Assembly (NCBI RefSeq): GCF_000384815.1
Contig: NZ_ARQF01000020.1
Location: 496,001-560,000, forward strand
Source of the DNA: Halodesulfovibrio aestuarii DSM 17919 = ATCC 29578
GTDB lineage: Bacteria; Desulfobacterota; Desulfovibrionia; Desulfovibrionales; Desulfovibrionaceae
Length of the DNA: 64,000 nucleotides
Reading direction: 5' to 3'
In this document: positions 28,825 to 37,690 of the stretch, piece after piece
Layout of the letters: each line of letters starts with the position of its first letter
Numbering within the stretch: position 1 is the stretch's first letter
Program-made: the position numbers and the translations under genes
Notes under the pieces: generated by a model
Seen by the model: the letters and a program-made list of their open reading frames with translations, nothing else
Told to the model about the DNA's origin: nothing
The model's database searches: none

Positions 28825-30204
28825 CTACTTTCTTTTATGTTCTTCAAGACCGTATTTTTTAATTTTACTATGCAGTGTTGCACGGGTAATCCCAAGCGCA
28901 CTGGCTGCATCCACTTTCTTTTTATGTTTTTTAAGTGCCGCCTGTACAGCCCGCTTTTCCAAACTTTCAAGAGAAACATCACCGAGCGGCAAATCAACTC
29001 CGCTGGAATTTCCCCTGCTCTGCTCAAGCAAGTTTTTACGCAAGTTTGCGGGTAATTCTCTATCGGTAATGTACTCAGTAGTAGCCATAATAACAGCGCG
29101 TTCCATGGTATTTTCCAACTCTCTGATATTCCCTTGCCACGGGCAATTCACTAACGCGTCCATGGCCTGTGGAGAACATCCCACAACGCTTTTGCCGTAC
29201 TTTTCGGCATAAATATTCATAAAATACTCAGCCAGCAGTGGAATATCTGCCTGCCGTTCACGCAGAGAAGGAACTTCCAATCCGATCACATTCAGCCGAT
29301 AATATAAATCTTCACGAAAGGTTTTATTTGCAACTTCATCCTGCAAGTCTCTGTTTGTTGCGGCAATAACGCGAATATCTACATGCAATATTGCGTCACT
29401 GCCTACTCGTTGCAACTCGCCCTGTTGCAACACGCGCAGCAGCTTTGCCTGTAATGATAACGGGATTTCACCCACTTCATCCATAAAAATGGTGCCGCCG
29501 TTCGCTTGCCAGAACAGTCCGTCCCTACGCTTATCAGCACCGGTAAAAGCCCCCTTCTCGTGCCCGAACAACTCGGACTCAAGCAAGCTTTCACTCAAGG
29601 CTGCACAGTTAATTGTCACAAAAGGTTTATTAGAGCGCTCACTGGCCTTATACACTGCTTTAGCGACCAGTTCCTTACCTGTACCTGATTCTCCTGTAAT
29701 AAGAACAGGAGCATGCGTCGGAGCGACTGTGGTTATAGTTTCCACCAGATCATGCATACGTTCACTGCTGCCAACCATGCCGAACTGGTTCTTTTCAGAA
29801 TTTTTTGCCTTCAGCGAACGGTTTTCTTCAGCAAGGCGGGTATGATCAAGCATCCGTTCAATTGTAAGCTTTAACACGTCAAAATCTAACGGTTTAATAA
29901 GATAGTCATATGCACCCTGCTTCAGGGCAAGAACGGCGGTATTAATAGAAGAATATGCGGTCATAATAAGTACAGGTATTGAAGGGTTATGCTTCGCTAT
30001 CTGTTTCTGGGCTGTGATTCCGTCCATACCGGCCATGCGGATATCCATAAGCACGCTGTCATATGGACGTTCCTGTGCCATCGCCACAGCTGTTTCCCCA
30101 TCCGTAGCTTCTGAGACTTCATAGCCCCAATCTTCAATTATTGTTCGGAGTACAGTGCGGTGCGAGCCGTCATCATCAACAATTAAAATATGCGCTGGCA
30201 TCAT
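28825..30204 (-). CDS. Sigma-54-dependent response regulator, ZraR/AtoC-like
   Basis: Enhancer-binding activator of 459 residues. The receiver domain has Asp 54 (VLMDIRMAGMDG). The AAA+ domain has GESGTGKE (about 171-178), the sigma-54 loop GAFTGA and Walker B IFMDEVGEI. A Fis-type helix-turn-helix (VDAASALGITRATLHSKIKK) lies near the end. Its first ATG overlaps the stop of the upstream kinase gene, so the two are translationally coupled. The partner kinase and the divergent ZraP-like gene behind a sigma-54 promoter suggest an envelope-stress role like E. coli ZraPSR. Sequence alone cannot separate Zra from other NtrC-family members. Confidence 0.9.
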   Translation of the reverse strand: MMPAHILIVDDDGSHRTVLRTIIEDWGYEVSEATDGETAVAMAQERPYDSVLMDIRMAGMDGITAQKQIAKHNPSIPVLIMTAYSSINTAVLALKQGAYDYLIKPLDFDVLKLTIERMLDHTRLAEENRSLKAKNSEKNQFGMVGSSERMHDLVETITTVAPTHAPVLITGESGTGKELVAKAVYKASERSNKPFVTINCAALSESLLESELFGHEKGAFTGADKRRDGLFWQANGGTIFMDEVGEIPLSLQAKLLRVLQQGELQRVGSDAILHVDIRVIAATNRDLQDEVANKTFREDLYYRLNVIGLEVPSLRERQADIPLLAEYFMNIYAEKYGKSVVGCSPQAMDALVNCPWQGNIRELENTMERAVIMATTEYITDRELPANLRKNLLEQSRGNSSGVDLPLGDVSLESLEKRAVQAALKKHKKKVDAASALGITRATLHSKIKKYGLEEHKRK

Positions 30205-32072
30205 TATTCCTTATCCATGCAAGGTAACTGTATAACAAACCGTGTTCCTTGCCCTTTATGGGAGAACACGCGAATAATTCCGTTATGTGCTTCAATAATC
30301 TTATGCACTACAGATAACCCAAGTCCCGTACCATGAGACTTAGTCGTAAAATATGGTTCAAATATACGTTCCGCTGTCTCACTGTCCATGCCTTCGCCAT
30401 TGTCTTCCACAATAACGCTTAGTGACTGTGCATCCGGAACCACAGTCACTTGCAATTCGCCGCCTTCATCCATGGCATCAAGACTGTTCAAACACAGATT
30501 AAGAATAACTTGCGAAAATCTATCGGTATCCAGCAAAACCTGCGGCGTCTCCTCAGGGATAACCACAGAGAGATGCACGTCACGCAGTTCAGCCTCCTGC
30601 GTAATTAAGCCTGTGCAGTGTTCAATAACATCCGCGATGTAAACAGGCTTCATTGTTAAATCAGAGGGGCGGGAAAGGCCTATCAATTCGGTAATAACAC
30701 GATTTAATCGTTCCACTTCATCAATAACAATGGCAGCCGTTTTTTCACCGGCGCTACCTTGTGTGAATTGCGATTTAAGATAGGTTGCGCCGCCTTTGAT
30801 AGAGCTGAGAGGGTTCCGGATTTCATGTGCTACACCTGCTGCAAGAGAGCCTATAGCAGCAAGCTTGCCCTTACGCTCCACTTCCGTTTGCAGACTGTGC
30901 ATTTCACGCAGATCACGCATCAAAAAGACAGTACCGATAACGATGCCATGTTCATCTTTTATGACTGATCCTGTGACACCCACAGGAAGCAAGGGCAGTG
31001 CTTCTGTAGAAAGCTCTATGATCTCTTCCCGACGCAATAAACCTTCACGCGCTTTGATATAGTACGGCACAAGGCCCGGCAAAAGTACCTGCGCAGCATC
31101 GAGACCTGCTGTAATATCTCCGTCGCAGTGCAGTAGTACCCTGCTCAGTTCATTCATATATACGATTTGGTCATTACTATCTGTCACAATCAATCCATCC
31201 GGCAAGTTGTACATAACTTCCTGCACCATGGCTTGACTGCGCCCTGCTTTTCGACGGGAACGCTGGGCACGATGCGCCCAATATAAAGATAAAAAGCCGA
31301 CAACCGCCAACAAAAGCACACTGCCGCTAGTAACAACAGTCTGCACGGTGCTGGCGCGCTGCAATTCGCGAAGCGGACGAGCATCCAGCCCTACATAGAT
31401 AACCGGCTGTTCCTTATCTTCATCTGTCGTATTAAGAAACGAGGTTATATCATCGGCAAGGTTCTGCGTATCAACTTTCTTTTCTATGGAACGGCTAGCA
31501 GTATGCGTTTCCGATGCTTTTTTCCCCTTGCGGAACAGCTGCATAAAACGTTCAAGCGGTTTAAGCGTCGGCTCCTTTTGTAACTTCTTCCACAATTCCT
31601 TACGGGTTAATGGAGTGAACTCTCTGTAGGCTAAGAAAACCTGCCGCTCATTAGCGGTATATATTGTCGAACGCCCTTTTGCTTCAGCACGCAGTTCTTT
31701 TATATGTCGTAAAAACTGTGCCTCCATGCGTTGCAACCCTTTCGGGAAGCTGCTCTGCATGATGGTTCCGTCACTAAACGTAATGGCAATGAAAAATATT
31801 TCAGGACGGTCTGCCATTTCATCAAGTAACAGCTTCAACCGTATTGTAGAATTTTTACTCCGCAAGTCCGTGCGCACTCCCGCTTCTACAGACGTGATAA
31901 GAGACGCGCCTTTATCTTCGTACAGCCGCACGTACTCTTTCATATTCTTCTGAATGGTGTTGTAGGTAAGAAAGGCTACGCCCAATCCCACAAGTAGAAC
32001 CACCCCTACTATGCAATATGGTGAAAGCAGTCTGCTTGAAGAAGTCTCATTTCGTGTATTTTTTGAACGCAT
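30204..32072 (-). CDS. Membrane sensor histidine kinase, ZraS-like
   Basis: Kinase of 622 residues. Membrane helix at about 19-38, a periplasmic domain to about 245, a second helix at about 250-270, and a PAS domain at about 285-385. The HisKA motif AAGVAHEIRNPLSSIKGGA holds the phosphorylated His near 405. The ATPase domain has DNGEGMD and GTGLGLSVVHKI. It is encoded just upstream of the sigma-54 response regulator and diverges from a periplasmic ZraP/Spy-like protein gene. The periplasmic domain contains a long basic insertion (KGKKASETHTASRSIEKK) that I do not recognise. Confidence 0.9.
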   Translation of the reverse strand: MRSKNTRNETSSSRLLSPYCIVGVVLLVGLGVAFLTYNTIQKNMKEYVRLYEDKGASLITSVEAGVRTDLRSKNSTIRLKLLLDEMADRPEIFFIAITFSDGTIMQSSFPKGLQRMEAQFLRHIKELRAEAKGRSTIYTANERQVFLAYREFTPLTRKELWKKLQKEPTLKPLERFMQLFRKGKKASETHTASRSIEKKVDTQNLADDITSFLNTTDEDKEQPVIYVGLDARPLRELQRASTVQTVVTSGSVLLLAVVGFLSLYWAHRAQRSRRKAGRSQAMVQEVMYNLPDGLIVTDSNDQIVYMNELSRVLLHCDGDITAGLDAAQVLLPGLVPYYIKAREGLLRREEIIELSTEALPLLPVGVTGSVIKDEHGIVIGTVFLMRDLREMHSLQTEVERKGKLAAIGSLAAGVAHEIRNPLSSIKGGATYLKSQFTQGSAGEKTAAIVIDEVERLNRVITELIGLSRPSDLTMKPVYIADVIEHCTGLITQEAELRDVHLSVVIPEETPQVLLDTDRFSQVILNLCLNSLDAMDEGGELQVTVVPDAQSLSVIVEDNGEGMDSETAERIFEPYFTTKSHGTGLGLSVVHKIIEAHNGIIRVFSHKGQGTRFVIQLPCMDKE

Positions 32073-32151
32073 AGCGCTCTCTACTCCATGCCTCTTGCGT
32101 ATAAAAATGTGCTATTTAGTGCAGTTATCAATATTTTTGTTCAAATTTTAA

Positions 32152-32169
32152 ACGTTTTCTATAAAACGT
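32152..32169 (+). promoter_or_regulatory. Putative upstream activating palindrome for the ZraR-like regulator
   Basis: ACGTTTT and AAAACGT surround CTAT to give an 18-bp perfect palindrome, about 100 bases before the sigma-54 promoter. A second, adjoining dyad GTATA/TATAC (32168-32172 with 32178-32182) follows. Position and symmetry suit an enhancer site; the assignment to this regulator is inference. Confidence 0.5.
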
Positions 32170-32268
32170 ATAGTTTTTATACATAGCGTCTTTACCCCGA
32201 TCTACCACAAATAGCACGATAATTTTTATCCTACTGTAATGCTAAGACAAATTGAAAAAACGTTTTTT

Positions 32269-32283
32269 TGGCACGCAGGTTGC
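32269..32283 (+). promoter_or_regulatory. Sigma-54 promoter for the ZraP-like gene
   Basis: TGGCAC (32269-32274), five bases, then TTGC (32280-32283) is an exact match to the -24/-12 consensus. It points toward the zraP-like gene at 32494, giving a leader of about 200 bases. Confidence 0.85.
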
Positions 32284-32338
32284 TGTAGAGAAAACATAAG
32301 CAAGCTAGCTCCCCCGACTGGCTGCTGAAGCGTATAGA

Positions 32339-32415
32339 GCGTAGCGTCACTAAAATGAGTTCACCCTCTCATTGTATGGCAACAAAATTGTTTTCAGGAA
32401 AACGTGACGCTACGC
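32339..32415 (+). repeat. 12-bp inverted repeat around 53 bases in the zraP-like leader
   Basis: GCGTAGCGTCAC (32339-32350) and GTGACGCTACGC (32404-32415) are exact reverse complements within the presumed 5' leader. The right arm is followed by CCTAAAAAAAT, not a T-run. This could be a long leader hairpin or the ends of a small inserted element. Confidence 0.6.
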
Positions 32416-32493
32416 CCTAAAAAAATACAGTGCAAAACCCTTTTACCTGCTCATTTTCATAACAGTTTTGCATATTACATATGAGGTACTCCT

Positions 32494-32985
32494 ATGACTA
32501 ATCGTCTTTTAATTGCGCTCATTCTTGTGCTCTCAGTAGCCAGCGGCACTATTGCCGATGCCACTGAAATTGCTGAGCACGAAAAAGCTACGGCGACTCA
32601 AGTGGAGCTTACAGCTATCCAGCAACAAGAAGTGCTAAGACGTAATAAGGCATACGCAGAAAAAACCCGCCCGATTCGTGAAGAACTCTGGGCAAAAAAA
32701 ACTATTCTTCGCGCACTCACAACTAACCAGAATGCCGAAGTTAATGATATTCAAAAGATCGTGAACGCCATGAAGGAACTCCGCGCCAAGCTGCATGCAG
32801 AGCGTGTTGTGTTCGAAGAGGATATGATGAAAAAGTACGGCTTCATCCCCTCCACCAACTGGATTAATAAGAACGATGCGTTCCGACCCGCTGACACTGA
32901 TCCTGATACCGCAACAGAAGATTCTCAGAATACAGATGACAGCACCCCTAAGACGAAGAGCTTTTTTTCGAAGCTCTTCGACTAA
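32494..32985 (+). CDS. ZraP/Spy/CpxP-like periplasmic protein
   Basis: Secreted protein of 163 residues with a signal peptide (cut near residue 21). Two long charged helices follow (about 40-115), including RRNKAYAEKTRPIREELWAK and a helix turn. The tail is acidic and Ser/Thr-rich. This is the layout of the LTXXQ/heavy-metal-resistance superfamily (ZraP, Spy, CpxP), periplasmic chaperones or metal sensors that feed back on a kinase. The His-rich zinc motifs of E. coli ZraP are missing, so zinc binding is not supported. It is divergent from the kinase-regulator pair and has a sigma-54 promoter. Confidence 0.75.
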   Translation: MTNRLLIALILVLSVASGTIADATEIAEHEKATATQVELTAIQQQEVLRRNKAYAEKTRPIREELWAKKTILRALTTNQNAEVNDIQKIVNAMKELRAKLHAERVVFEEDMMKKYGFIPSTNWINKNDAFRPADTDPDTATEDSQNTDDSTPKTKSFFSKLFD

Positions 32986-32994
32986 AAAAAACAG

Positions 32995-33038
32995 ATTGCT
33001 GCAACATGTATATCAAACAACATACATGTTGCAGCAAT
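32995..33038 (+). repeat. Perfect 17-bp inverted repeat after the zraP-like gene
   Basis: Bases 32995-33011 and 33022-33038 are exact reverse complements (ATTGCTGCAACATGTAT and its complement) around a 10-base loop. No T-run follows, so it is a protective 3' hairpin or protein-binding site rather than a simple terminator. Confidence 0.7.
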
Positions 33039-33123
33039 ACTGTGAACCCTACAGTTAATCTCACTGCAAAGTTGAGCAGAAGTTTCGATAATACGGTTTG
33101 TTCTTCACTCAAGCATCAAAAAT

Positions 33124-33270
33124 GCATCTCCCTGCAACGGTCTTGGTAATCGCTCCGAAGCAGGGAGAGAGTGGAGATGCGGTACAAGTCGATTACCATA
33201 ACCGCACTACCCCTATTGTTACATACACAATTTCAGTACCCCTGACTTTCCCGGTCAGGGGTTTTGTTTT
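33124..33270 (+). ncRNA. Candidate structured RNA ending in a terminator
   Basis: GCATCTCC (33124-33131) can pair with GGAGATGC (33173-33180), and CTCCCTGC (33128-33135) with GCAGGGAG (33160-33167). GGTAATCG near 33145 matches CGATTACC near 33190. These alternatives overlap, as in a folded RNA that can switch. The stretch ends at CCCCTGAC/GTCAGGGG plus TTTTGTTTT (33238-33270). No open reading frame is convincing. It may be a small RNA or the 3' untranslated region of the zraP-like transcript. Confidence 0.4.
33238..33270 (+). terminator. Intrinsic terminator
   Basis: CCCCTGAC (33239-33246) and GTCAGGGG (33254-33261) form a stem followed by TTTTGTTTT. From here to 33588 I see no gene. Confidence 0.88.
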
Positions 33271-33588
33271 AATATCAGGTTAGAACATGGTAGAAACTCA
33301 GTGTCATATCCCGCACAGTCATAATGAACCAACTGAAACAAGTGCCGAGTGGATACACAAAAAAATTCATGCAAAAAGTGATTCCATGCGGTATTATGCT
33401 TAAAAAAAAGCACAACGAGCCGCGCTTCCTCTGAATAATTCATTTCAGCACAAAAGACAGTTCGCCTTTCAACACCACACTACCAGTGACAGACTAAACA
33501 AAATGCACGATAGCTTATGATAACAATGTATTAATGACATAACAGTTACCGTGTAAAAAACAGACCGCAACAGACTCAGGAGTACCTT

Positions 33589-34251
33589 ATGGTTCGCATA
33601 CTTTGCTCTGTACTTTGCAGTTTCCTTGCAACTATTATTTGTCTTACCGGTGCCTATGGAGCTGCACAGCATGACTTGCCCCCTCCTGTCACAAAAGTTC
33701 TGACGCATACATGGAAGGTCTCCCCTGCATGGAAAACATCAACCTACACCTTTCATAAAGAGGAATTTATTAATCCAAGAATTGTGGAAGAAATGCAGGG
33801 GCCACTTGCGGATAGCGGATCACAGCTCATTTCCGTAAACGTTCAGAACGCTAACATCAGCAATCAATTTTTTAGTGAAGTACGAGTGCGTTCCACTACC
33901 CCAACACCGTACGTTTACTATCAGGAAGATAACAAAGAATTCGGATACTCATTCGTAGGAGCAACAACTACCGGCATCCAAATTGTACACACTCAGAGCA
34001 CACAGGGGGGCTCGGGAGTATATCATAATCTTCTATTTTTCATTTTTACCGATACAGATGCCATATCGTTCGGACTGGAAGTAGTTCCTGTAACTCAGCC
34101 AACGCTCACGCTAATCGGCACGCTTCCTCTTGGAGACAGATTTACAGGCACAATATCCCTTGCCGATGACACACTTACCGTACTCCCCCCCAAAGAGTCC
34201 GCGCAGCCTCTTCCGCTCTACAGCGGAGGAATTATTCTACAATTCAAATAA
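33589..34251 (+). CDS. Secreted protein of unknown function
   Basis: Protein of 220 residues with a signal peptide (hydrophobic core about 5-22, cut near GAYGA 24-25). The rest is predicted mostly beta strand, with no motif I recognise and no lipobox. It is monocistronic, bounded by the upstream terminator and its own terminator. It is presumably periplasmic. No function is proposed. Confidence 0.75.
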   Translation: MVRILCSVLCSFLATIICLTGAYGAAQHDLPPPVTKVLTHTWKVSPAWKTSTYTFHKEEFINPRIVEEMQGPLADSGSQLISVNVQNANISNQFFSEVRVRSTTPTPYVYYQEDNKEFGYSFVGATTTGIQIVHTQSTQGGSGVYHNLLFFIFTDTDAISFGLEVVPVTQPTLTLIGTLPLGDRFTGTISLADDTLTVLPPKESAQPLPLYSGGIILQFK

Positions 34252-34252
34252 A

Positions 34253-34280
34253 AAAGGATGAGCAACCCTGCTCATCCTTT
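34253..34280. terminator. Bidirectional terminator
   Basis: AAAGGATGAGCA (34253-34264) and TGCTCATCCTTT (34269-34280) form a 12-bp stem between convergent genes. Confidence 0.9.
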
Positions 34281-34288
34281 CATTCATG

Positions 34289-35029
34289 CTACTTAATGGC
34301 AAAAAACAACATCCCTTTGGTTACATCAGAACTGTTAAGCCCTGTTTCCGCAACCTTAGCGATTTGTTTAAAGCCAACCTCTTCAAGCAGTGCCAGAAAC
34401 TCCGTTTCCGGTATAGCGCCCCCTTGTCATTTAAACCAGCAGTCCATCGCCTGCTCACTGCACATTGCCGACCCAACTAGTATCTGATCTGCAACATGAA
34501 GCCGACCACCTTTTTTGAGAACACGATATGCCTCTTTTAGAGCACGTTTCTTATCAACTGCAAGGTTCAGCATTGCGTTTGTGGTAACTACATCAAACTG
34601 CTCATCGTAAAACGGTAACGCTGCAACTTCGACAACTTGAAATAACACATTGGTTGTTTGAGAAATTTTTTTATTACTCTGTGCCCGCTTAACCATCTCT
34701 TCTGAAATATCGACTCCCACTGACAGTCCGGAAGAGCCAACCATTTTTGCGGCTAAAATAGCATCAATACCGGCGCCGCACCCTAGATCGAGCACTTTTT
34801 CGCCTGACACAATTTTACTCAACGATAATGGATTTCCCACGCCGCAATACCACTTTGCGACATCGTCAGGTAACAGCCCGATAAGCTCTTCAGGATAATG
34901 TCCGCCCTGCAACCCTTCTTTGCCTGTTGGGTACTGAAACTGACACGCAAGAGATTCAGCAACATTTTTATATTTTCTTTTTACAACAGAAATAATTTTC
35001 TGTGCAACTTCAGCACTGGGCCTAAGCAT
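34289..35029 (-). CDS. ArsM-like SAM-dependent methyltransferase, probable selenoprotein (in-frame UGA)
   Basis: The reading frame from ATG 35029 meets TGA at 34427-34429 after 200 codons. It then stays open, in the same frame, for 45 more codons to TAG at 34289-34291. The N-terminal part is an arsenite-methyltransferase-like protein: GHYPEELIGLLP, WYCGVGNPLSL, then the SAM motif VLDLGCGAGIDAILAA and VLKKGGRLHVAD. The part after the UGA, QGGAIPETEFLALLEEVGF, matches the region of ArsM that follows a conserved cysteine (xCxGGA). The UGA therefore sits where the arsenic-binding Cys is expected, at residue 201. A hairpin starts 15 bases after the UGA (34393-34411) with a GGA loop, as in a bacterial SECIS. 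Reading through gives 246 residues. An arsenic or related methylation role is inferred; a nonsense mutation is the alternative. Confidence 0.75.
34393..34411 (-). promoter_or_regulatory. Candidate bacterial SECIS hairpin
   Basis: On the minus strand CCGGAAAC and GTTTCTGG pair over 8 bp (one G-U) around a GGA loop. The stem starts 15 bases and the loop 23-24 bases after the in-frame UGA, within the usual window for a bacterial SECIS, with G at the loop start. Confidence 0.6.
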
Positions 35030-35180
35030 GCTTCACCGCACTCCAGTTACTATGCGTTACTGCATTACACACAATATGACTTGATACCCGCCTCTATAAA
35101 AAACCACACGGACAATATCTGGTTAAAAACAAATATGTCTATATTTCTCTTTAAAAAACAGCATATAAGCACTCACTAAC

Positions 35181-35214
35181 AAAAGTGCCTCCACATTGCT
35201 GCAAAGGCACTTTT
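35181..35214. terminator. Terminator after the 322-residue hypothetical gene
   Basis: AAAAGTGCCT (35181-35190) and AGGCACTTTT (35205-35214) form a 10-bp stem with T-runs on either side depending on strand. Confidence 0.75.
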
Positions 35215-35245
35215 AACGGCATCATCATGTACAGCCGGGATTAAG

Positions 35246-36214
35246 CTATAAAAGATCTGCTATTTCATCTATGGAATATAAATTGTTACGATACAGCCCG
35301 TACCCCGCAAAACGAGAATGGGCAAACTTCACATCAACAGAATCACGTAACAAACGCACAACACTTTTCAGGTGCTTGGAATGAATAAACTCCGCCAGAT
35401 GAGACCCTTCAGGCTCCTGATTAGCAAGGCAAATAACAACATGCGGTCTTTTATGTAGAATTCCTTGCAGGCCGTCCTTGCCATCCACCAGACTACCCGG
35501 AAGCATAAGTTGCTTACGCTGATAAAAAATATTTTCCACTTCAGCTATTAACTCTTCCAAAGCACTTGTGCCTTCCACAAGCTTGAACAATTTTTCAAGG
35601 TACGGGATGACCCCATACGGTCCCATTAAGTTCATTGAGCCAAACCGCATGGCAAAGATGGCCAAAGCAGGGTCAGGGTCAATTTTTGCTGCTATTTTTG
35701 TCGGCAGATATACACCTAGCATGTCAAAACGCATGACAACACCAGTCGAGAACGAGCTCTGGCAATCAATGTCGGTGATATGATAATCAGTTCGCGGTGC
35801 AACCGCAGAATACGTGTTTTCCCGCATCGCTGTCTGCAAAAAGTCCTTTACTACGACTTGTTCTTCACAGGTATACACTGTCTTTTCATTGCAAGATAAA
35901 TAAACATCAATACATGTCTTCAATTCAGCAAAAATCAAAACCCAACGCTCTGGGTCATTCATAAGCGTATTATCAACACTCGGGAGTTCAACATAATAGC
36001 TTTTTGTCAAGTAATTCTGGTTAAATAACATATCGTACTTACCTGCTCTTAGACGAACAATAAGTAACGCAATGCCTCTATAATAAATATGCACTTCATC
36101 CGGACGAATTTGCATATCCAGAGACGTATCTTTCCGAACAAATTCCAGAAACGGATATAGAGGGCCGTTTTCGTGCAAGTCATCCATAAATTTACTGCTC
36201 AGTTCACGGGCCAT
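35246..36214 (-). CDS. Conserved-looking cytoplasmic protein, unknown function
   Basis: Protein of 322 residues that I cannot assign. It is soluble, without signal peptide or membrane helix. Segments such as DEVHIYYRGIALLIVRLRAGKYDMLFNQNYL and a C-terminal VVICLANQEPEGSHLAEFIH look like a structured enzyme or defence-type domain, but no catalytic motif is evident. ATG 36214 is chosen because AAGGAG lies 6 bases before it; the longer frame begins 12 codons earlier without a ribosome binding site. It is flanked by a terminator on its 3' side and has no operon partner. Confidence 0.75.
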   Translation of the reverse strand: MARELSSKFMDDLHENGPLYPFLEFVRKDTSLDMQIRPDEVHIYYRGIALLIVRLRAGKYDMLFNQNYLTKSYYVELPSVDNTLMNDPERWVLIFAELKTCIDVYLSCNEKTVYTCEEQVVVKDFLQTAMRENTYSAVAPRTDYHITDIDCQSSFSTGVVMRFDMLGVYLPTKIAAKIDPDPALAIFAMRFGSMNLMGPYGVIPYLEKLFKLVEGTSALEELIAEVENIFYQRKQLMLPGSLVDGKDGLQGILHKRPHVVICLANQEPEGSHLAEFIHSKHLKSVVRLLRDSVDVKFAHSRFAGYGLYRNNLYSIDEIADLL

Positions 36215-36310
36215 GGCAAACTCCTTTTCATAAAAAAAGCCTATTACCACTATCCCAATTACAGCAGATAAAACCTATGATAAGACAATGTATTTGTGAG
36301 CAATAAATAT

Positions 36311-36346
36311 AAAAAAGCCCCTTGCGCCGTAACGCAGGGGGCTTTT
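36311..36346 (-). terminator. Terminator after the purine permease
   Basis: Arms 36313-36326 and 36333-36346 form a 14-bp stem (one G-U) with AAAAGCCCCTTGCG on one side. A T-run follows on the minus strand. Confidence 0.9.
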
Positions 36347-36376
36347 GATTATCTATTGAATATCTCGGGAACAGGA

Positions 36377-37690
36377 TTAGTGCATCATGAATTTCAGAAC
36401 GAACAAGCCTACCAGAACGTAAGCGAGCTTAGGAATCTCGGAACGGCGACCTGTAAGGAACTTCAGTGCTACGTAGGAAGTAAGACCGAAGATAATACCT
36501 TCTGCGATGCTGAAAGTGTACGGCATCATAACGATACACAGAAATGCAGGAATTGCTTCGGTGTAGTCGTCCAGATCGATTTCACGAATCGGGCTCATCA
36601 TAAACATACCTACAGTAATAAGTGCAGGTGCAGTTGCCTGAGCAGGAATTACGAGAAATACAGGAGCGATGAGAAGAGCCAGAGCAAACATACCAGCGGT
36701 TGTAACCGCTGTAAGACCTGTACGCCCGCCTTCAGCAACACCGGCTGCACTTTCTACGAAAGTAGTAACCGTGGAGGTACCAAGGCAAGCACCGGCAGTT
36801 GTTGCGATAGCGTCTGCGAACAAAGCCTGTTTTGCGTTAGGAACACGCCCCTGCTTGTCGAGCATATTTGCTTTAGCGGTAACACCGATAAGGGTACCGA
36901 CAGTGTCAAACATATCCACAAACAAAAAGGTAAAGAGAACAATAACCATGTCCAGAGAGAACACCTTGGAGAAGTCCAACTGCATAAAGAGCGGAGACAG
37001 GCTTGGAACACTGAACAAATGGTCAGTATTAAAAGTGCCCAGATCAGTTACACCAAGAGGAATACCAACGATGGTTGCTGCAAGCATACCAATAAGCAGT
37101 GCGCCTTTAACTTTTTTAGAAAAGAGCACGCCGATAACGATAAGGCCGATGATACAAACCAGTGGGCCAGCAGAAGCAATGTTACCAACGGTAACAAGGG
37201 TTGGTTCGTAAGGAACAACAATACCGGCACTCTTAAAGCCGATAAGCGCAATAAAGAAGCCGATACCGGCAGAAATAGCACGCTTTAAGTTTGCAGGGAT
37301 ACTGTTAATAATTGCTTCACGGACGTTGGTACCAGTGAGGACAACAAAAATAACACCTTCAAGGAATACTGCTGTAAGTGCAGTCTGCCAGGTGTAGCCC
37401 ATGGTAAGAACTACGGTGTACGCAAAGAATGCGTTCAAACCCATGCCCGGAGCCAAAGCGAAAGGCAGGTTTGCAAAAAACCCCATGATCAATGTACCAA
37501 CAACCGCGGACACTGCAGATGCAGTAAACACCGCAGCAGGGTCCATTCCAGCAGCTCCCAGAATGACAGGGTTAACAGCCAGAATGTACGCCATAGTCAT
37601 AAATGTAGTCAGGCCCGCAGTCACTTCTGTGCTTACAGTAGTGCCGTGCTCGGACAGCTTGAACGTACGCTCAAGAAATCCCTTGCTCAC
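36377..37690 (-). CDS. AzgA/PbuG-type purine permease (NCS2)
   Basis: Inner-membrane proton-coupled transporter for hypoxanthine, guanine or adenine. The 437 residues contain about 12-14 hydrophobic helices. Family segments are TEVTAGLTTFMTMAYILAVN, LPFALAPGMGLNAFFAY and GTSTVTTFVESAAGVAEGGR. GTG 37690 is chosen as start because AAGGAGG precedes it by about 8 bases and the first residues SKGFLERTFKL fit the family. The exact base specificity cannot be read from sequence. A structured leader lies directly upstream. Confidence 0.92.
   Translation of the reverse strand: MSKGFLERTFKLSEHGTTVSTEVTAGLTTFMTMAYILAVNPVILGAAGMDPAAVFTASAVSAVVGTLIMGFFANLPFALAPGMGLNAFFAYTVVLTMGYTWQTALTAVFLEGVIFVVLTGTNVREAIINSIPANLKRAISAGIGFFIALIGFKSAGIVVPYEPTLVTVGNIASAGPLVCIIGLIVIGVLFSKKVKGALLIGMLAATIVGIPLGVTDLGTFNTDHLFSVPSLSPLFMQLDFSKVFSLDMVIVLFTFLFVDMFDTVGTLIGVTAKANMLDKQGRVPNAKQALFADAIATTAGACLGTSTVTTFVESAAGVAEGGRTGLTAVTTAGMFALALLIAPVFLVIPAQATAPALITVGMFMMSPIREIDLDDYTEAIPAFLCIVMMPYTFSIAEGIIFGLTSYVALKFLTGRRSEIPKLAYVLVGLFVLKFMMH

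Follow-up and report, generated by a model that had tools for sequence, protein, structure and literature searches.

A predicted selenocysteine in an ArsM-like methyltransferase of Halodesulfovibrio aestuarii that lacks two of the three arsenic-ligand cysteines

ArsM-like enzymes with selenocysteine (Sec) are a known kind, present both in the literature and in NCBIfam. A Sec-containing 'arsenite methyltransferase' with the motif UxxG is listed in PMC13188914 ahead of the heading 'Predicted with high confidence', with a citation of Fomenko et al. 2007. The table in PMC5029168 counts 41 such proteins in 39 organisms, PMC2398784 names them as a selenoprotein family (table row 8, 4, 245) and PMC9312934 also tabulates them. 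Arsenite binds to three cysteines of AS3MT, methylarsenite to two and dimethylarsenite to one (PMC3877260). According to the same paper, the human AS3MT variant C61S, at the equivalent of Cys72, is inactive on inorganic arsenite and active on MMA(III), while Cys156 and Cys206 are required in both methylation steps. In one survey, ArsM sequences had to have three or more of four conserved cysteines (PMC5552862). TtArsM of Thermus thermophilus needs just one cysteine to methylate As(III) (PMC8649762). The part that sulfate reducers play in arsenic methylation is debated (PMC9213503).

Here, we describe an ArsM-like gene of Halodesulfovibrio aestuarii DSM 17919 = ATCC 29578, located in a stretch of 64,000 nucleotides (contig NZ_ARQF01000020.1, positions 496,001 to 560,000), which we refer to as the window. 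The frame runs on the minus strand from the ATG at 35029 to the TAG at 34289-34291, and its sole internal stop is the TGA at 34427-34429, codon 201 of 246 (Table 1). A first-pass annotation had proposed that this UGA alone breaks an otherwise continuous frame, and that the 45 codons past it read as the C-terminal region of ArsM. Translation confirmed the break, and the region past the UGA does continue the ArsM domain, as NCBIfam and PDB sequence matches extend through it. The standard-code list of open reading frames terminates the gene at the UGA. Although a stop seems to break it, the gene is almost certainly intact and encodes a methyltransferase with selenium, a kind that is already known.

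Table 1. Features of the ArsM-like gene, in window positions.
Feature	Position	Strand	Basis
ArsM-like methyltransferase CDS, 246 residues, with UGA as predicted Sec	34289..35029	-	translation; genus homologues; NF041536 294.6 bits
In-frame UGA, residue 201, predicted Sec, CmArsM Cys224 column	34427..34429	-	translation; alignments; 53 UGA and 52 Cys in 105 homologues
Cys62 codon, 2 residues ahead of the CmArsM Cys72 column	34844..34846	-	44/53 Sec homologues
Val64 codon, CmArsM Cys72 column (As ligand absent)	34838..34840	-	alignment, 105 homologues
Ala152 codon, CmArsM Cys174 column (As ligand absent)	34574..34576	-	alignment, 105 homologues
Presumed SAM-binding motif I, DLGCGAG, residues 81-87	34769..34789	-	sequence; columns conserved in relatives
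bSECIS-like mRNA hairpin (predicted), 8 bp, loop GGA, stem from 15 nt past the UGA	34393..34411	-	fold; covariation; synonymous-codon null
Terminator-like hairpin, starting 7 nt past the distal (read-through) stop TAG	34252..34281	-	terminator-site scan

The best NCBIfam matches of the read-through protein were three selenoprotein models that start with the same domain, all of them below their cut-offs: NF041536 (ArsM_DUF2284_UU, 294.6 bits against 575), NF041537 (ArsM_AhpD_UU, 292.2 against 510) and NF047649 (MTase_UXPK_star, 272.7 against 460). The likeness lies in the methyltransferase domain, with approximately residues 6-246 aligned. Unlike these double-selenoprotein models, in which an extra domain or tail carries a further Sec, the H. 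aestuarii protein has neither the second domain nor the C-terminal tail and contains a single UGA. The source of the multi-selenocysteine NCBIfam families is Haft and Tolstoy 2025. Three multi-TGA relatives of our protein were scanned and all matched these models, with L099 passing the NF047649 cut-off (501.5 against 460) and L087 falling just below that of NF041536 (573.7 against 575). In L087, L090, L092, L093, L095, L098, L099 and L101, the frame continues past another in-frame TGA after the methyltransferase domain, and the extra parts are AhpD-like, DUF2284-like or a short tail. The NCBIfam arsenite methyltransferase model PRK11873 gave 171.9 bits against a cut-off of 263 in a scan of this protein by itself. 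The protein also resembles the Sec arsenite methyltransferase of PMC13188914 (reference protein WP_011987699.1) in being ArsM-like with Sec and in the motif UxxG, which here reads U-Q-G-G.

By sequence, the best solved relatives were 5evj and the entries for CmArsM, which are arsenite methyltransferases. An AlphaFold model built from 21 sequences (pLDDT 94.6, pTM 0.92) matched CmArsM best (4fr0, Z 25.0, rmsd 2.1, 202 aligned; 6cx6, Z 25.0), followed by CrArsM (5evj, Z 23.9), with the next best chain at 21.2. Two more CmArsM entries reached Z-scores of only 19.3 and 19.1, the level of unrelated methyltransferases. The protein thus shares with canonical ArsM and AS3MT (CmArsM 4fr0, CrArsM 5evj) the predicted fold, the SAM motif (DLGCGAG, which we take to be motif I) and the place of the third arsenic ligand. 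It differs from them in the ligands themselves and in its length of 246 residues, the solved chains having 377-387.

In the alignment to CmArsM and 5evj, Sec201 falls on Cys224, Val64 on Cys72 and Ala152 on Cys174 of CmArsM, a ligand numbering that we partly assume and partly take from PMC5552862. The sequence around the UGA column is 'GECLAGAL' in 5evj and 'GECLGGAL' in 4kw7, so that the UGA takes the position of a conserved ArsM cysteine. The suggestion of the first-pass annotation that the UGA lies at a conserved cysteine near the arsenic site was therefore right for the third ligand column, but the site as a whole is not kept, as the other two columns hold valine and alanine. Presumably, Cys156 and Cys206 of AS3MT correspond to Cys174 and Cys224 of CmArsM, in which case one of the two is an alanine in our protein. 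With these residues in its ligand columns, the protein fails the three-cysteine definition of ArsM even though its best fold matches are ArsM, and it is also not an ArsM by the definition of the survey cited above.

To determine how general this arrangement is, we compared the three columns among homologues. A tblastn search at 1e-15 matched 108 of 149 loci, and dropping three at 100 bits or less left 105; L016, which shares its contig with L013, and L160, which shares its place with L017, had been left out beforehand. These 105 are the best matches to the H. aestuarii protein among those with loci at hand and not a random sample. The first-pass annotation had proposed to check whether homologues have Cys or UGA at this position; we found 53 with UGA and 52 with Cys, and none with Trp. 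The columns read Cys/Cys/Cys in 51 homologues, Val/Gly/Sec in 46, Val/Ala/Sec in six, and Ile/Gly/Sec and Val/Gly/Cys in one each, the last being a Woesearchaeota record (L017). All 53 Sec homologues thus have Val or Ile and Gly or Ala instead of the other two ligand cysteines, and all 51 homologues in which these two cysteines are intact have Cys in the third column; none of the 105 combines Sec with Cys72 and Cys174 of the canonical site. The shifted Cys62-type cysteine occurs in 44 Sec rows and is missing in nine.

In a tree calculated with the three ligand columns masked, 50 of the 53 Sec rows fell on the same side of one branch (SH-aLRT 99), and Cys occupied the Sec column nowhere within this 50-row branch. 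The tree was a quick one, without bootstrap and unrooted, so it gives no order between the Sec and the three-cysteine forms. The other three Sec rows, L107, L194 and L203, group with Cys proteins, and L107 and L203 were flagged as long. These three have the Val/Gly pocket and Sec but no Cys62, and they possibly form a separate Sec lineage.

The UGA is conserved well beyond H. aestuarii. Ten genomes of the genus were surveyed, its own included; six have a homologue, each with exactly one TGA, and four have none. The homologues in the other five genomes are 69-81% identical to the H. aestuarii protein over nearly the whole length (72% in G008). The first-pass annotation had pointed to truncation or a sense codon other than Cys in close relatives as evidence against Sec, and neither was seen in these six. 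In the family, 37 of 199 genomes have a match at an E-value of 1e-30 or better, and among the 47 matches listed, the best 32 have TGA (31 have one and one has two) compared to one of the remaining 15. In a sample of the phylum, matches at 1e-35 occurred in 59 of 395 genomes. Each of the 25 listed matches scoring at least 149 bits (own included) has one TGA, compared to two of the 42 weaker ones. Two other phyla were also surveyed. In that of L020, 76 of 398 genomes have a match, no internal stop occurs in the matches listed, and all 25 loci read are Cys/Cys/Cys. In that of L028, 161 of 301 genomes have a match and at least seven matches have one TGA; 18 of the 20 loci read are Cys/Cys/Cys, and the other two are L194 and L203, with Val/Gly/Sec and no Cys62.

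Codons downstream of the UGA evolve under purifying selection, as indicated by the substitution pattern in the six genus sequences. The pN/pS was 0.292 over the 45 codons after the UGA and 0.231 over the 200 before it, against 1.251 and 2.555 in shifted frames. Synonymous changes were fewer downstream (pS 0.455 after the UGA against 0.702 before), as expected with an overlapping RNA element. In one homologue, L081, the frame is apparently shifted soon after the UGA, which may reflect a sequencing error or decay.

Bacterial bSECIS elements follow a rule for their distance from the UGA and for a G-leading loop, and the hairpin downstream of the UGA in H. aestuarii fits this rule. The 8-bp hairpin with a G-leading 3-base loop that had been described from the sequence is indeed present. 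Taken alone, it is ordinary: its folding energy has a z-score of -0.37, 67 of 200 shuffles fold as well or better, and 7.8% of synonymous recodings also reach eight of eight pairs. Among 50 Sec homologues, all eight pairs form in 40 and at least seven in 46, with a mean of 7.58 pairs against 5.56 in synonymous recodings that follow the codon use of each gene itself. Covariation was calculated for the 46 sequences in register, in which 98.4% of the cells are paired, and amounted to 0.307, compared to 0.140 after shuffling and no more than 0.135 after sliding. Four of the eight pairs are altered on both sides in this set, whereas the count of further pair types (8) was not above that in shuffles (9.2). 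The 46-sequence result is favoured by the omission of L102, L103, L104 and L107, Sec rows that form only 5, 4, 5 and 3 of the eight pairs and whose hairpin is out of register; they were kept in the 50-sequence set. An alternative hairpin of 6-7 pairs is present in L102, L103 and L104. The frame-shifted L081 was omitted from both hairpin sets and kept among the 105 homologues. What makes the predicted hairpin remarkable is its conservation and covariation in relatives, not the hairpin by itself.

The terminator-like sites numbered two against a shuffle mean of 1.1, which is weak alone, and the four promoter-like sites near 35112-35141 compare with a shuffle mean of 2.3, near chance. A scan of 33000-36500 with Rfam gave seven matches, all below their gathering scores.

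The genome encodes the machinery for Sec insertion. As the first-pass annotation had suggested looking for selA, selB, selC and selD, we searched for all four and found each of them: SelB (386 bits), SelA (629) and SelD (338.5) are above their cut-offs, and tRNA-Sec scores 84.6 bits, with the anticodon TCA assigned by ARAGORN. The SelD gene (L115, C21:309978-310904) has one in-frame TGA itself, and its product is likely a selenoprotein as well. Acr3, an arsenite efflux protein, is also encoded above cut-off. The one other match to the ArsM-like protein in this genome at an E-value of 1e-10 (L015) reaches 59 bits and lacks all three ligands.

Looking for an ars operon, we analysed the genomic neighbourhood. 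Forty flanking stretches were compared with the window, and operon-like neighbours were listed for 35 of these, five genus stretches being omitted. Pfam was then scanned with ten of the 40 operon-like candidates and with ten other neighbours (seven from L140, L143 and L148, three of the window). Within the genus, five neighbour genes stand in identical order at all six loci. Two of these conserved neighbours have no Pfam match, another has a weak heavy-metal-resistance match, and another is a sensor kinase. The order of the flanking ORFs 33589-34251 (+) and 35246-36250 (-) is kept in all six genus loci, and neither has a Pfam match at an E-value of 0.01. Further along the window, 28825-32985 holds ORFs that we read as a sensor kinase and a sigma54-type regulator, and in divergent orientation to them a small protein whose match to Metal_resist is weak and below cut-off; this set resembles what we take to be a metal stress set of the ZraSR/ZraP type. 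No ars operon was found beside the ArsM-like gene in the neighbours scanned, and no partner gene common between genera was found in the loci compared. At L140, the gene has an ArsR-family regulator and a VTT membrane protein within approximately 2 kb, and at L148 an ArsR-family regulator and a VTT-cluster protein are 2-4 kb away. Directly upstream at L143 are a URO-D family protein and a second protein that is weakly glutaredoxin-like. Other loci have unrelated neighbours, such as a flavin reductase, a LysE exporter, a DNA polymerase subunit or a phosphate transporter.

Considering how the UGA is decoded, a true stop would make this a decayed or truncated gene that yields a 200-residue protein, and the standard-code list of open reading frames, which ends there, is consistent with that. 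Against it stand the retention of the UGA in all six genus homologues and across genera, the selection past the UGA, the covarying hairpin and the alignment of the UGA residue with a conserved ArsM cysteine, which together make a true stop very improbable. We consider a sequencing error, or decoding of the UGA as Trp or another residue, even more remote: nothing was found in its favour, while an identical UGA occurs in other genomes, the genome has the Sec machinery, and Trp is absent from the column in the 105 homologues. By every comparison made here between sequences, the gene product is a selenoprotein, and the first-pass proposal of a candidate selenoprotein is supported by UGA conservation, covariation, selection and machinery alike. 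Very probably, SelB and tRNA-Sec decode UGA 201 as Sec, aided by the hairpin just downstream, and the product would be a SAM-dependent methyltransferase of 246 residues with the ArsM fold. The selenolate of Sec201 would then hold a soft metal or metalloid in an ArsM-type pocket, joined in most relatives by Cys62, which is nearby in sequence, and the bound element would receive a methyl group from S-adenosylmethionine. A single selenolate, with or without Cys62, would thereby stand in place of the three thiolates of ArsM.

Which substrate such a site would hold is less certain. The first-pass annotation had envisaged Sec in an arsenic- or metalloid-methylating enzyme; the Sec held up, but enzymes of this sort were known before, and with two of the three arsenic-ligand cysteines missing, a function in arsenic methylation is not established. 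Our guess, about evenly balanced, is that trivalent arsenic would be the likeliest single substrate, perhaps as arsenicals that are already methylated and need fewer ligands. Missing cysteines are compatible with an arsenic substrate, as TtArsM methylates As(III) with its single cysteine (PMC8649762). TtArsM is like our protein in being a methyltransferase without the canonical three-cysteine site, but unlike it has no Sec and instead combines its one cysteine (C77) with two histidines. A real, if not the favoured, possibility is a selenoprotein methyltransferase that acts on something other than arsenic, such as a different soft element or a small compound bearing a thiol or selenol, and that has inherited the name arsenite methyltransferase by similarity. 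This would agree with the lack of the Cys72 and Cys174 ligands in every Sec homologue and with the cysteine criterion of PMC5552862. It would also agree with the AS3MT mutants of PMC3877260, in which the C61S protein loses inorganic arsenite and both steps depend on Cys156 and Cys206. The neighbourhoods point the same way, as neighbours differ among loci elsewhere, and in the genus the weak Metal_resist match and the kinase and regulator pair are near. The ArsM entries among the best fold matches and the single-cysteine activity of TtArsM argue against it.

As a selenoprotein, the H. aestuarii protein is ordinary, and the replacement of the ligands is the interesting part. We recognised no report of the link between Sec and the loss of two cysteines in the portions of the Sec and ArsM literature covered, although Fomenko 2007 and Haft and Tolstoy 2025 may have it. 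A practical consequence is that a standard-code gene list drops the residue at the arsenic-ligand position, so that such enzymes can be missed or called truncated in surveys of arsenic genes in sulfate reducers. The strict link between Sec and the absent ligands raises the question of whether, and for which substrate, one selenium can replace three sulfurs in metalloid methylation. Tentatively, and from the sequence comparisons, we suggest that the Sec proteins may belong to a methyltransferase lineage of their own, where the three-thiolate site is replaced by a single selenolate, usually accompanied by the shifted Cys62, and where the substrate is a methylated arsenical or another element. 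If true, the term arsenite methyltransferase in its usual sense would not apply to the Sec proteins, whose substrate would be bound through one or two soft ligands.
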